Source of the DNA: an uncultured Candidatus Nitrosopumilus sp.
Lineage (GTDB): Archaea > Thermoproteota > Nitrososphaeria > Nitrososphaerales > Nitrosopumilaceae
Direction of reading: 5' to 3'
Assembly (NCBI GenBank): GCA_905479565.1
Contig: CAJQMY010000012.1
Location: 1 to 46,245, forward strand
Length of the DNA: 46,245 nt
The number at the start of each line of letters is the position of its first letter. The stretch's first letter is position 1. The translations under genes and the position numbers were made by a program. The notes under the pieces were generated by a model that saw only the letters and a program-made list of their open reading frames with translations, was not told the origin of the DNA and did not search any database. This document shows positions 601 through 28,278 of the stretch, in pieces.

Positions 601-1053
601 ATGAACAAAATAATTCTGTTCTCAAGTATTTTGTTTTTAACTTTACTACTGCCTTTCTCAATTGATTCTGCCTTTGCGCATCCTCATTCTGGCCAAGTTC
701 TAATTAATAGCCATATACACGAGTCTCAAACTAAAATCATTCCATTAACTGGAATGATAGGTATCGAAAAGTCGACAATATTTTTCCATTCTTCTGAAGA
801 TAATACTTTACCGTGGGCATACGTTGAAGGAAAGATTGCTAACCATGTTGAAGGTTATCCCGTAATAATTCAAATTTTTAAAGAAAATGACGCTGTTCAT
901 TTTGCTCAAACTGATGTGAGTCCTGATGGTAATTACGAGTACAAGTTTAGAGTTCTAAATTATGAAAATGGTATGTCAAACAAAATCTTTGATGGTGATT
1001 ATTTTGTAAAAATCTTCAAAGTAGTATACACGTATCAAGAAAATCTAATTTAG
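601..1053 (+). CDS. Secreted beta-sandwich-like protein with His-rich N-terminus
   Basis: 150 residues. A signal peptide covers about residues 1-26 (hydrophobic core ILFSSILFLTLLLPF, AFA cleavage-like site). The mature N-terminus carries four histidines (HPHSGQVLINSHIH). The remainder alternates strands with the pattern EGYPVIIQIFKEND and GNYEYKFRV, which resembles Ig-like beta-sandwich domains common in thaumarchaeal exported proteins. It is probably extracellular or surface associated. The histidines could bind metal, but this is inference. It converges on, and overlaps by 4 nt, the radical SAM gene on the other strand. Confidence 0.7.
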   Translation: MNKIILFSSILFLTLLLPFSIDSAFAHPHSGQVLINSHIHESQTKIIPLTGMIGIEKSTIFFHSSEDNTLPWAYVEGKIANHVEGYPVIIQIFKENDAVHFAQTDVSPDGNYEYKFRVLNYENGMSNKIFDGDYFVKIFKVVYTYQENLI

Positions 1054-1946
1054 AATCCACGTAATCCTTCTGGTCGTACCATCTCTGGATGCTGTTTCAT
1101 CCATGCTACTTTATCTAACATTGCTTGTTTGTCTTGAGGAAAAGTGCCTTTGACTGTATATGCATTAGAACCATGATTTACTCTGAAAATAATCTCTTCC
1201 TTGGTATCGATCTGATGTATTAAATCATATAGTTCTTCTAAAGATTCATCATCATTGATTCTAGTAAATTCGCCTTCATACTTGTCGATAAATTCTTGTT
1301 TAATTCCATTTTCCAAGTATAGAGTTAACGCACCGACATAGTCTGGTGAACAGGCACTGATCACCTCAGCAGTACCTTTGATATGATCTTTAGAGTATTT
1401 TTTTCCACCTAATCCTAAAATTACCATGCATGACATTACATATCCAGCTTCTTTTGCCTTGTTTACTGATTTGACAATTGTTTTACCTATTGCTCCTTTG
1501 GTTACTTTTTTTAATACAATATCCGAACCACTTTCAATTCCTAGATAGAACATGTCAAGACCTGCCTCATTCATTTTCTTTAACTCCTCAGATGTTTTCT
1601 TTAAAATGTTCATAGGCATTGCATAACATGAAATTCTTTCAATGTTTTGAAATTTCTCTCTAATGTATTTTACAATTTTAATCATGTATTCTGAATCAAG
1701 ATTTAATGCATCACCATCTGCAAGGAATACTCTTCTAGTTTCAGGTAGATAACCTGCCATCATGTCTATTTCTGCCTTCACATCTTCCCATGATCTTTCA
1801 GAATATTCTTTTGATCTATACATATCACAAAATGAACATTCATTAAATGAACAACCTAACGTTACTTGGAAAATTAAAGATCTAGCTTCTGATGGTGGTC
1901 TGTACAGAGGTGCATCATAGTTTAACATCATTTTTTGTTCATTCAA
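1050..1946 (-). CDS. Radical SAM protein
   Basis: 298 residues. The [4Fe-4S] cysteines are C32, C37 and C40 in GCSFNECSFCDMY. The spacing is Cx4Cx2C, not the classical Cx3Cx2C. This GCxxNxCxFCxMY form is, to my knowledge, typical of one COG1032-related branch. Later motifs (VFLADGDALNLD, GLDMFYLGIESGSD, GYVMSCMVILGLGGK) fit a radical SAM partial TIM barrel that binds S-adenosylmethionine. No B12-binding domain is visible. The substrate is unknown. It is transcribed divergently from the winged-helix gene at 2028, with an 81-bp shared promoter region. Confidence 0.85.
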   Translation of the reverse strand: MNEQKMMLNYDAPLYRPPSEARSLIFQVTLGCSFNECSFCDMYRSKEYSERSWEDVKAEIDMMAGYLPETRRVFLADGDALNLDSEYMIKIVKYIREKFQNIERISCYAMPMNILKKTSEELKKMNEAGLDMFYLGIESGSDIVLKKVTKGAIGKTIVKSVNKAKEAGYVMSCMVILGLGGKKYSKDHIKGTAEVISACSPDYVGALTLYLENGIKQEFIDKYEGEFTRINDDESLEELYDLIHQIDTKEEIIFRVNHGSNAYTVKGTFPQDKQAMLDKVAWMKQHPEMVRPEGLRGF

Positions 1947-2027
1947 ATTTCAATTATTATGTTTTTTATACTTTCTATTTCTTCTAGAATACCTTTTAGT
2001 AGTAAATGAGAAGAAATTTCGTAACTT

Positions 2028-2330
2028 ATGGCTAATGATCCTGATGCAAAAAGACTCCTATGGTTTGTATTTGCAGGTTCTAGAGGGGGATTAAACCGAT
2101 TAAAAATAATCTCTAAACTAAAGGAAAATCCATTTAACACAAATCAATTAGCAAAGGAAATGGGTCTTGATTACAAGGCCATTCAGCATCATATTCAAGT
2201 ATTAGAAAAAAACAACATGATAACCAAAGTTGGAGAAAAATACAATGTGACTTATTTTATCTCAACCTATCTTGAAGTCAATATGGAGGCATTTGAAGAA
2301 ATTGAAGGAAAATTGGATAAAAGTAAATAA
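2028..2330 (+). CDS. Winged-helix DNA-binding protein (ArsR-like fold), module copy 1
   Basis: 100 residues. Residues about 8-80 form a winged helix: LLWFVFAGSRGGLNRLKII, then the helix-turn-helix TNQLAKEMGLDYKAIQHHI, then a wing (ITKVGEKYNVTYFIS). It is clearly paralogous to the protein at 26753. Both share AGxRGGxNRxKI, LDxKxxxHH and a C-terminal helix. It probably acts as a transcription regulator. It is followed 25 nt later by a three-helix membrane protein, and the other copy has the same arrangement. No metal- or ligand-binding motif is visible, so the signal is unknown. Confidence 0.85.
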   Translation: MANDPDAKRLLWFVFAGSRGGLNRLKIISKLKENPFNTNQLAKEMGLDYKAIQHHIQVLEKNNMITKVGEKYNVTYFISTYLEVNMEAFEEIEGKLDKSK

Positions 2331-2355
2331 AAGCTCCAGAGGTGTTTTACACTAA

Positions 2356-2640
2356 ATGGAATCTACTTCTCTAGTACTATCTATTGTTTCAATTGCCAAC
2401 ATGGGCATACTTGGAGTTCTAATCGTTATATTTGGAAAAATGTATGGAAATACTAGAGCCCAACTACCATTAGGAATGATAGTTGTTGCAGGAATGTTGT
2501 TTTTGCATAATGTAATTGGTGCACTAGCTTATTTTTCCATGGAGGAGATTTTTTCACATGAAATTTTCCCATACATGTTAGGAGTAGGGATTACAGAACT
2601 TGCAGGATTGATAATATTTTTAAAAATTACTTTAGACTAA
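2356..2640 (+). CDS. Small three-helix membrane protein, module copy 1
   Basis: 94 residues with three predicted transmembrane segments, at about 6-27, 37-58 and 70-90. There is very little soluble sequence. A Shine-Dalgarno-like AGAGGTG lies about 12 nt before the ATG. It resembles the product of 27173 in length, topology and the pattern SxxNxGxLxVVIV, and both directly follow a winged-helix gene. I infer that it is the membrane partner of that regulator, perhaps a sensor or anchor. No known family is recognised. Confidence 0.75.
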   Translation: MESTSLVLSIVSIANMGILGVLIVIFGKMYGNTRAQLPLGMIVVAGMLFLHNVIGALAYFSMEEIFSHEIFPYMLGVGITELAGLIIFLKITLD

Positions 2641-25498: not shown

Positions 25499-26041
25499 CT
25501 AAGGAATGACAGTATTTGATGTAATACCAATTGCCTCACCAAAATAATATCCAGACAAAATGGTTCCAGCAGACCAAACACAAGAACCTGCAAATGTATA
25601 TATCACAAATTTTGGAATTTTCATTTTGAGTAATCCAGCAGGAACTGAAATCATTTCCCTCATTACTGGAACCATTCTTCCCAAAAATACTGCCTTGTCA
25701 CCATATTTTTCAAACCAAGTTTCTACGCGTTCTAATTTTTTCTCATTTACCTTAACATATTTCAAGTATCGAAGTAAGACAACTCGCCCAAGTTTTAATG
25801 CAATAAGATAGATTGCAGATGTTCCAATTGTTGCACCAATTGCACCTAGAATGATCATTGGAATTAAACCAAACAGGGTAATTCCTTGTTGAGACGCTAA
25901 AAATCCTGCAGTTGGAAATATTGCCAATGTAGGAATAGGTGGAATTATAGTTTCAAGTAAAGCTGCTAAGAAAATTCCTTCATAGAGATGATCTCCTAAA
26001 AAATCTGCAATCCATACAAGAAAAGAATCAAAAGGTTCCAT
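25499..26041 (-). CDS. DedA family membrane protein
   Basis: 180 residues. The DedA (SNARE-associated/VTT) features are an N-terminal helix, EGIFLAALLETIIPPIPT, re-entrant-loop-like stretches, and the signature FGRMVPVMRE-type segment (FLGRMVPVMREMISVPAG). Several hydrophobic segments follow. The superfamily includes lipid scramblases and transporters of undecaprenyl phosphate or selenite; the substrate here is unknown. Confidence 0.9.
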   Translation of the reverse strand: MEPFDSFLVWIADFLGDHLYEGIFLAALLETIIPPIPTLAIFPTAGFLASQQGITLFGLIPMIILGAIGATIGTSAIYLIALKLGRVVLLRYLKYVKVNEKKLERVETWFEKYGDKAVFLGRMVPVMREMISVPAGLLKMKIPKFVIYTFAGSCVWSAGTILSGYYFGEAIGITSNTVIP

Positions 26042-26109
26042 TTGCTTCTGGCACTGAGATCTTATTAAATTACCTTACGAGTTAGTGATTACGAACATGT
26101 TTTGTGCCT

Positions 26110-26126
26110 AAAGATTGGGGTCTAAA
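26110..26126 (+). promoter_or_regulatory. 17-bp upstream motif, copy 1
   Basis: AAAGATTGGGGTCTAAA is identical to 27482-27498. It begins 57 nt before the ATG of the DM13 gene and precedes a TATA-like CTATATACC (about 26139-26147). The other copy begins 59 nt before the spondin-domain gene. The similarity continues for about 10 bp downstream (TGGA, then AAAC-like bases). The position upstream of the TATA box suits an activator or BRE-proximal operator. Confidence 0.65.
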
Positions 26127-26166
26127 CTGGAAAACACGCTATATACCAAAACTTCATTGTTCTAGC

Positions 26167-26697
26167 ATGAACAAACTGTTAGGAATTGCAATTGTAATAA
26201 CGGTTGTAGGTGTAGCAGCATTATTTGCATTATCACCATATTTTACAGAATCAACTATTGATGAAGCAATTCCAACGGATGCAATAATTCGATCAGAAGT
26301 AGAGAACAAAAACAATGTAGCGTCAGATCAAGATGATACTATGATGGAAGAAGAAATGATGAAATCTATTCCAATGTCATATGCAGGTTCATTTGTAGGA
26401 GTTGGTGATGGAGTTCATGATGCGCAAGGAAACGCATACACTATAGCATTAGAAGATACCAGTAATGTACTAAGATTAGAGAATTTTAAATCAACTAATG
26501 GTCCAGATTTGTATGTATATTTGTCAACTGATGAAAATGCATCAGACTTTGTCAATTTAGGAGCGCTAAAAGCAAGTAGTGGAAATCAGAATTATGAAAT
26601 TCCAGATAACACTGATTTGAACAAATACAACAAAGTTCTGATTTGGTGTAAAGCATTTGGTGTTTTATTTGGTAGTGCAGAAATATCCATTCAATAA
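26167..26697 (+). CDS. DM13-domain exported protein
   Basis: 176 residues from the ATG at 26167. The frame continues to a GTG at 26104, but the TATA-like box sits inside that extension. The N-terminal hydrophobic segment LGIAIVITVVGVAALFAL acts as signal or anchor. An acidic linker follows. The DM13 domain runs from SYAGSFVGVGDGVHDAQG through GPDLYVYLST to the conserved Cys in VLIWCKAFGVLFGSAEI. DM13 is proposed to take part in extracytoplasmic redox reactions. It is one of two genes here that share the 17-bp upstream motif. Confidence 0.85.
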   Translation: MNKLLGIAIVITVVGVAALFALSPYFTESTIDEAIPTDAIIRSEVENKNNVASDQDDTMMEEEMMKSIPMSYAGSFVGVGDGVHDAQGNAYTIALEDTSNVLRLENFKSTNGPDLYVYLSTDENASDFVNLGALKASSGNQNYEIPDNTDLNKYNKVLIWCKAFGVLFGSAEISIQ

Positions 26698-26752
26698 GAC
26701 TAAAAATATTCAAAAGCGATTTTTTATAACCAATACTAATTCTGAAAAATCA

Positions 26753-27145
26753 GTGTTAACTACAACAATTACCCTGTCGGTATTTTCATTTTCAAGTTTA
26801 ATTCCAAGAGGATTATTTTCCTTTTCAGGTACAGATGATTATCAATCAAACCTCAATCCCAGATTCAAAATGATACTTTGGTCAATCATTGCAGGCACAA
26901 GAGGAGGCATAAACAGAGCGAAAATCCTCAACCTAGTAAAGGATACTCCAATGAATGCAAACAAGATTTCCACAGTATTAAATTTAGATCACAAAACAGT
27001 AATTCATCATGTAGAAATTCTTGCAAAAAATGAGCTTGTAATAAAAGCTGAAAAAAATTATGGTGCAGAATATCAATTAACCCAAATTATGAAAGAAAAT
27101 CAAAATGTTTTAGAGGAGATTATGCTAAAAATTGGAACAAAGTAA
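26753..27145 (+). CDS. Winged-helix DNA-binding protein, module copy 2
   Basis: 131 residues from the GTG at 26753. The frame continues upstream into the DM13 gene, but TTTTTTATAACC near 26718-26729 gives a leaderless fit at 26753. After an N-terminal segment of about 38 residues of weak hydrophobic character comes the winged helix (MILWSIIAGTRGGINRAKIL, then NANKISTVLNLDHKTVIHHVEIL, then a wing). Paralogy to 2028 is plain. The extra N-terminus is absent from that copy. It is followed 27 nt later by a small membrane protein. Confidence 0.85.
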   Translation: MLTTTITLSVFSFSSLIPRGLFSFSGTDDYQSNLNPRFKMILWSIIAGTRGGINRAKILNLVKDTPMNANKISTVLNLDHKTVIHHVEILAKNELVIKAEKNYGAEYQLTQIMKENQNVLEEIMLKIGTK

Positions 27146-27172
27146 ATTAGTAAATCAGAGGAGCATATTACA

Positions 27173-27475
27173 TTGGTAGACTTTATGCTAGCAGCAGTTA
27201 TGTCTGCATTTCTTAACATTGGATTGTTACTAGTTGTAATTGTAACTTATGTTCAAAACATGAGAGTAATTAGATCATACTATACATCAGGTTTAGTACT
27301 AGTTACAGTATTACTAATGATTCAAAATATAGTTATTGTACTATTTTGGTCAACACTATACATGGATGATAAAACATTGATGATGTCAGCTGATATGATA
27401 TCACATTATTTGTTTGCAATTAATGTAATTCAAACAATTGGATTATCCGTTCTTGTTTGGATTACCAGAAGATAA
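27173..27475 (+). CDS. Small three-helix membrane protein, module copy 2
   Basis: 100 residues from a TTG start with GAGGAG about 10 nt upstream. Three transmembrane segments lie at about 6-27, 38-59 and 76-97. The pattern AFLNIGLLLVVIV matches ANMGILGVLIVIF of the copy at 2356. The conserved order regulator-then-membrane protein suggests a functional pair. No known family is recognised. Confidence 0.75.
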   Translation: MVDFMLAAVMSAFLNIGLLLVVIVTYVQNMRVIRSYYTSGLVLVTVLLMIQNIVIVLFWSTLYMDDKTLMMSADMISHYLFAINVIQTIGLSVLVWITRR

Positions 27476-27481
27476 TTTCAA

Positions 27482-27498
27482 AAAGATTGGGGTCTAAA
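27482..27498 (+). promoter_or_regulatory. 17-bp upstream motif, copy 2
   Basis: AAAGATTGGGGTCTAAA, identical to 26110-26126. It begins 59 nt before the ATG at 27541, upstream of a T-rich TATA-like element near 27519-27529. It starts 7 nt after the stop of the membrane-protein gene. Confidence 0.65.
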
Positions 27499-27540
27499 AT
27501 GGATAAACCCTTAAGGTGATTTTTTAAAATTACTAGTTTA

Positions 27541-28278
27541 ATGAAAACAAAAAAGACAAGTGTTTTTGCCATAACTACAATAGTTGCAATGTTAGCTGTT
27601 GTAAGTATAGCAGGAATACCTGAATCTAATGCGACAAAGTCACAGATGTATGAGGTTACTATAACAAACCTTACTCCTGGACAACCCCTCACACCACCAC
27701 TCTTGGTAACACATGCAGAAAATGCAGGATTTTTTACCCCGGGTGAAATGGCATCTGATGAGATTCAACAATTAGCCGAAAATGGCAATGCTGAATCCCT
27801 AATTGAAATGTTACAAGGAAAACCAGGTGTTTTGGATATTGTTCAAGGAACTACTCCATTAGTTCCAGCAAATGATCCGGGAGAAACAGGGTTAAATTAC
27901 TCAGAAACTTTTACAGTTTCTGCTGAAAGTAACATGAGATACTTGTCCTTTGCAAGTATGTTAGTTTGTACAAATGATGGTTTTGCAGGAATAGATTCGG
28001 TAAAACTTCCATTCTATAAACAAAAAACAGTTTACGCAATGGCGTATGACGCAAGAACTGAAATGAATACAGAAGACTTTGCAGATATTGTTCCTCCTTG
28101 CCAAGGTGCAATCGGTGTCTCTTCAGATGATGAAGGAACTGGTGCAAGTAATGATATAATTTCAGAAGACGGAATAGTCATCTTACATCCAGGAATTATG
28201 GGAGGAAATGATTTACTTGAAAGTGTTCATACATGGGGTAACCCAGTTGTCAAAATTGACATTGTACGAATAAAATAA
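27541..28278 (+). CDS. Exported spondin-domain protein
   Basis: 245 residues. A signal peptide (about 1-32, ending ESNA) leads into a spondin_N-like domain: YEVTITNLTPGQPLTPPLLVTHAENAGFFTPG, later SNMRYLSFASMLVCTNDGFAGIDSV and AYDARTEMNTED. Such domains occur in extracellular matrix proteins of animals and in many microbial exported proteins of unknown role. The gene carries the 17-bp upstream motif also found before the DM13 gene. Confidence 0.88.
   Translation: MKTKKTSVFAITTIVAMLAVVSIAGIPESNATKSQMYEVTITNLTPGQPLTPPLLVTHAENAGFFTPGEMASDEIQQLAENGNAESLIEMLQGKPGVLDIVQGTTPLVPANDPGETGLNYSETFTVSAESNMRYLSFASMLVCTNDGFAGIDSVKLPFYKQKTVYAMAYDARTEMNTEDFADIVPPCQGAIGVSSDDEGTGASNDIISEDGIVILHPGIMGGNDLLESVHTWGNPVVKIDIVRIK

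Follow-up and report, generated by a model that had tools for sequence, protein, structure and literature searches.

Two gene pairs of one layout in the window

The window is a stretch of 46,245 nucleotides from an uncultured Candidatus Nitrosopumilus sp. (contig CAJQMY010000012.1). It holds two gene pairs, A and B, in each of which a gene for a winged-helix regulator is followed directly by a gene for a small membrane protein predicted to form three helices (Table 1). An earlier note on this DNA had given the gene order, the coordinates, intergenic gaps of 27 nt (pair B) and 25 nt (pair A) and AGAGG-type ribosome-binding sites, and all of these held when the sequence was re-read; CAGAGG lies 5' of both membrane genes. 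The regulator motifs that the note had pointed out were also found, one as AGTRGGINRAKI and AGSRGGLNRLKI, the other as LDHKTVIHH and LDYKAIQHH.

Table 1 Features of pairs A and B and of the genes flanking pair B.
Feature	Position in window	Strand	Evidence
Pair A promoter element AATACCTTTTAGTAGTA, conserved	1988..2004	+	20-genome alignment
Pair A regulator, winged-helix, 100 aa, form conserved across Nitrosopumilaceae	2028..2330	+	
AGAGG ribosome-binding site, pair A membrane gene	2338..2342 (approximate)	+	sequence
Three-helix membrane protein of pair A (94 aa), with strong conservation in Nitrosopumilaceae	2356..2640	+	
Secreted/membrane protein with a DM13 domain, immediately 5' of pair B	26104..26697	+	PF10517 E 2e-20
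Pair B promoter, BRE/TATA-like AAGCGATTTTTTATAA, then inverted repeat CTGA-N4-TCAG	26715..26753	+	6-genome alignment
Pair B regulator, winged-helix (ArsR-fold), 130 aa, GTG start	26753..27145	+	HTH_5 E 7.7e-6, AlphaFold2, Foldseek
AGAGG ribosome-binding site, pair B membrane gene	27157..27161	+	sequence
Three-helix membrane protein of pair B (100 aa), starting with TTG	27173..27475	+	AlphaFold2
Secreted protein with a Spondin_N domain, 3' of pair B	27541..28278	+	PF06468 E 6e-8

The two pairs are paralogous, as had been claimed. The regulators share 35% identity over 93 residues in pairwise alignment (E 3e-25), and both membrane proteins, the pairwise similarity of which is weak (22% identity, E 9e-5), match one profile from other archaea. 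This profile was made from non-Nitrososphaeria partners only and gives the two proteins 35.2 and 46.2 bits, while 1000 shuffles reached at most 8.6 bits. The GTG start of the pair B regulator is supported because the start-codon column is conserved (GTG/GTG/GTG/TTG/TTG/ATG in six genomes) and has a conserved BRE/TATA element about 26 nt upstream of it. At the position of the TTG start of the pair B membrane gene, relatives have an aligned ATG.

The genome containing both pairs (G000; 1.42 Mb, Nitrosopumilaceae-type) encodes five wHTH paralogues, and a membrane partner adjoins only those of pairs A and B. Of the other three, one (G000:C26:17001-17360, L002) directly precedes the glutamate dehydrogenase gene, another adjoins a cupredoxin-like protein, and the third is close to the end of a contig.

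Pair B is embedded in a cassette (25499-28278) in the order VTT, DM13, regulator, membrane protein and Spondin_N. The DM13 gene stands upstream of pair B in all seven genomes examined, and the Spondin_N gene is kept downstream in four of the seven. Across 109 neighbours of the pairs no common Pfam family was found, and the neighbours differ widely between archaea.

The regulator is an ArsR-fold protein

Both window regulators score over the HTH_5 cut-off, which assigns them an ArsR/HTH_5 winged-helix domain. AlphaFold2 models the pair B regulator as a winged helix (core pLDDT above 90) preceded by a disordered N-terminal extension, and Foldseek returned CzrA, SmtB and HlyU as the nearest solved structures. 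The first helix is hydrophobic and conserved, with the consensus MKxxLWWLIAGTRGGxNR (also written LLWWLIxGxRGGxNR). As no conserved cysteine, and with it no classical ArsR metal- or thiol-sensing motif, occurs among 59 aligned regulators, the proteins are by their sequences an ArsR-fold branch without this motif. The N-terminal extension of 25-40 residues is specific to the B type and adds a hydrophobic stretch in 7/7 genomes, which is not strong enough to be called a membrane helix with confidence.

The membrane partner belongs to an unnamed family

The pair B membrane protein was modeled with AlphaFold2 on an archaeal alignment, giving helices at residues 4-32, 36-64 and 67-99 (pLDDT 87). 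Loop 1, between helices 1 and 2, is short and basic (approximately YxxxxSxFTLGL) and is a site of strong conservation; it carries on average 2.8 K+R vs 0.5 D+E, and loop 2 carries 0.8 vs 0.9. On the basis of this charge distribution loop 1 is predicted to be cytoplasmic and loop 2 outside, which would give an N-out/C-in topology in which the cytoplasm is reached by nothing more than loop 1 and a few residues at the C-terminus. In many relatives the protein is longer by one helix at the N-terminus and by a linker, the latter predicted to lie outside. The profile matches indicate that the membrane partners are homologous across archaea. The family is unnamed and annotated at present as "hypothetical protein": 60 diverse members had no relatives in Pfam, NCBIfam or the PDB, and a fold search with the model gave nothing meaningful.

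ArsR-family repressors often sit before a transporter under their control. The wHTH protein might thus be an ordinary one-component repressor, with the membrane protein as its regulated effector (a small transporter, a channel subunit or a stress protein) and no contact between the two, and the secreted proteins flanking pair B could be further targets. We consider this unlikely, as the membrane protein has only about 95 residues and no transporter relatives in the searches above, conservation is strong in its predicted cytoplasmic loop, the pair stays constant while its neighbours vary between archaea, and the regulator is devoid of the cysteine motif by which sensing ArsR proteins bind metal.

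The pair is a conserved operon across archaea

The earlier note had regarded the two genes as a module, an idea that would fail if homologues were rarely adjacent in archaeal genomes. Adjacency proved to be the rule both within Nitrosopumilaceae and far outside. Among 101 Nitrosopumilaceae genomes, 76 have the regulator and about as many the membrane protein, and 79/91 membrane genes immediately follow a wHTH gene of the family (76 by script, where the spacing is usually exactly equal, and 3 on inspection). In several of the remaining cases both genes are present, 3-18 kb apart. Genome G010 and the reduced genus g18 lack the two together, and G059 has degenerate forms of both. Searches starting from the membrane-protein profile, which are free of bias from the regulator, found adjacency in 18/18 cases from other families of the phylum and in 21/25 from nine other archaeal genomes.

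A scan starting from the wHTH protein recovered 586 relatives from 84,980 genomes. The best 80 of these 586 come from Halobacteria, Thermoplasmatota, Nanohaloarchaea, Thorarchaeota, Methanosarcinales/ANME, Hydrothermarchaeota, Methanobacteriaceae, Bathyarchaeota and Nitrososphaeria, and 76 of their 79 usable loci have a small membrane protein directly downstream, compared with 7/96 when neighbouring ORFs were used as a control. The halobacterial relatives of the regulator show about 41% identity (E 6e-22), and all eight examined adjoin a small hydrophobic protein. In some genomes of genus g8 (L171, L172) two regulator genes in tandem form a triplet with a single membrane-protein gene behind them. 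No natural fusion of regulator and membrane protein was found; the long open frames considered as fusions proved to be upstream extensions.

A small HTH gene followed by one for a small hydrophobic protein could also be read as a toxin-antitoxin-like or mobile cassette, in which the hydrophobic protein is accompanied by its repressor, and some halobacterial copies do reside on plasmids. Such a cassette is highly improbable here: most Nitrosopumilaceae have retained the pair, the 94-residue membrane protein is strongly conserved, and no mobile-element genes adjoin the pairs in the window.

Partners remain matched through diversification

Distances between regulators correlate with those between membrane proteins (r 0.69; 48 pairs, nearly all from multi-copy genomes). 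Swapping partners within genomes, which preserves the species history, lowered the correlation to 0.40 +/- 0.05, and none of 5000 swaps reached the observed value. Outside Nitrosopumilaceae the correlation was 0.73 vs 0.23 on swapping. The regulator and its membrane partner therefore stay matched as the pairs diversify. Adjacency and matching trees can be produced by co-inheritance of linked genes alone, as they could by physical contact. The top signals of paired covariation lie in the first helix of the regulator and in those ends of the membrane protein that would face the cytoplasm. They vanish under finer clade-preserving shuffles, and thus show only that those parts differ between subfamilies.

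Promoters abut the regulator genes

Conserved promoters directly at the regulator starts of both pairs imply leaderless transcripts, and such a transcript is expected for pair B. Its inverted repeat extends over the expected start site and is imperfectly conserved, being exact in 3/6 genomes. We considered this repeat as an operator and the pair A element as a regulon marker. The former is not enriched in the window, and a genome-wide search for the latter returned one exact copy without enrichment, so that neither search yielded an enriched operator. Inspection by eye of the alignments of 20 and 6 genomes revealed no evident direct repeats 5' of the operon promoter. Pair A is separated from a radical SAM-like gene (1050-1946, minus strand) by a divergent promoter (1960-2027), which is conserved in about 20 Nitrosopumilaceae and has two separate TATA-like elements.

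Comparison with known regulatory systems

The earlier note knew of no described system with this composition, which was overstated, since SdpR/SdpI and the LytTR Regulatory Systems (LRS) share its logic. In Bacillus subtilis, SdpI retains the autorepressor SdpR at the membrane (PMC1626106). The likeness lies in a two-gene operon of an ArsR-type autorepressor and then a polytopic membrane protein, and among NCBIfam models below threshold the SdpR subfamily fits the pair B regulator best (E 1.6e-8). However, the window regulators score 29.2 and 34.3 bits (the latter for pair B) against the SdpR cut-off of 100, none of the 60 diverse membrane proteins matches the SdpI family in Pfam or NCBIfam, no SdpABC-like genes occur nearby, and the promoters are archaeal.

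HdrRM and BrsRM are LRS, a proposed signalling class of two-gene operons in which a regulator that autoactivates precedes a transmembrane inhibitor (PMC6193735). The archaeal membrane gene likewise lies directly downstream of its regulator, and the proteins differ: the regulator is an ArsR-fold winged helix without a LytTR DNA-binding domain, and profile searches relate the membrane family to no catalogued family. By analogy the pair likely acts like SdpRI or LRS in its logic, and its sequences do not place it in either.

The gene order and logic of HdrRM/BrsRM (PMC6193735) would suit a regulator that activates its own operon and others and is kept inactive by the membrane protein until a signal arrives. 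We hold this direction of control to be less likely than repression, because the regulator is of the ArsR and not the LytTR type, no upstream direct repeats are evident by eye in the promoter alignments, and the inverted repeat of pair B, which is conserved in part and overlies the expected start site, suits a repressor better.

Membrane-coupled HTH regulators are also known from archaea, namely ArnR/ArnR1 of Sulfolobus (PMC13286277), but there the HTH and the membrane helices are in one protein, which is phosphorylated by kinases. The searchable literature, outside which most subscription journals and preprints lie, contained no prior description of the pair. This kind of device is already known in bacteria; its archaeal version seems so far to be undescribed.

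A proposed membrane-to-gene switch

We propose that the two genes form an archaeal membrane-to-gene switch, with the regulator docked on its membrane partner and acting most likely as an autorepressor, and put the probability of this reading at about 0.6. The regulator, probably as a dimer, would dock via its first helix on loop 1 of the membrane protein. A change in the membrane or outside, in the sensing of which the external linker of the four-helix version may take part, would alter this hold and with it the access of the regulator to DNA. The regulator would control its own promoter, most likely as an autorepressor that is drawn off the DNA to the membrane on a signal, as in SdpRI. Repression is favoured by the ArsR fold and by promoter elements abutting the start. 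Within the window the likely targets are its own operon and the flanking secreted proteins, with the DM13 gene as a candidate for co-regulation and the Spondin_N protein as a candidate target.

Adjacency, joint presence and absence, the match of the trees, the homology of the partners and the predicted topology of loop 1 argue for the switch, as do the CzrA/SmtB/HlyU-like fold, the promoters at the regulator starts and the precedents of SdpRI and LRS. Against it count the three wHTH paralogues of five without an adjoining membrane gene, the separated genes of several Nitrosopumilaceae, the lack of an enriched operator in the searches above, the loss of covariation under clade-preserving shuffles and a membrane protein that offers almost no cytoplasmic mass for docking.

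How signals pass the membrane in archaea with few two-component systems is poorly known. The pair is a compact, widespread and testable candidate for this role, occurring in about three quarters of the searched Nitrosopumilaceae genomes and in tractable genera such as Haloferax. If the tethering is true, archaea would have in it a simple route, apparently undescribed until now, for switching genes from the membrane.

A possible haloarchaeal counterpart

Three-helix proteins of the family DUF7521 (PF24365) lie behind a CsmR-like HTH gene in 23/28 halobacterial cases (L185-L188, L214-L237), often at a spacing of 0-60 nt. With a basic loop (YRGYRR) and a position close behind a small HTH gene they resemble the membrane proteins described here, but their HTH partners belong to another family than the window regulators. 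The CsmR-like HTH and DUF7521 make up a second, apparently undescribed module of HTH and membrane protein. Homology between the two membrane families was considered and rejected: the alignment is collinear and not significant (hhalign probability 16%, E 0.0016), and none of the 60 membrane proteins passed the PF24365 cut-off.

CsmR binds promoters according to ChIP-seq (PMC13286277). Its occurrence in Nitrosopumilaceae was the lead for considering it a member of the same regulator family, which was dismissed as Haloferax CsmR, located by synteny with archaellins, scores only 7.5 bits to the regulator profile. CsmR stands beside the archaellins with no adjoining DUF7521 partner and may be a member of the module that has lost its partner.

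Tentatively, and with somewhat less than even confidence, we suggest a pan-archaeal signalling class reaching from Nitrosopumilaceae to Halobacteria, methanogens and Thorarchaeota, in which a winged-helix regulator would be tethered in a reversible way by an uncatalogued membrane protein of three or four helices dedicated to it, the CsmR-like HTH and DUF7521 being an independent haloarchaeal counterpart. If true, membrane tethering would be a main archaeal alternative to two-component systems. At G000:C59:851-1900 (L069), a gene for a DUF7521-like membrane protein of 213 residues, perhaps composed of two repeats of three helices, precedes an HTH_45 winged-helix gene, the opposite gene order.
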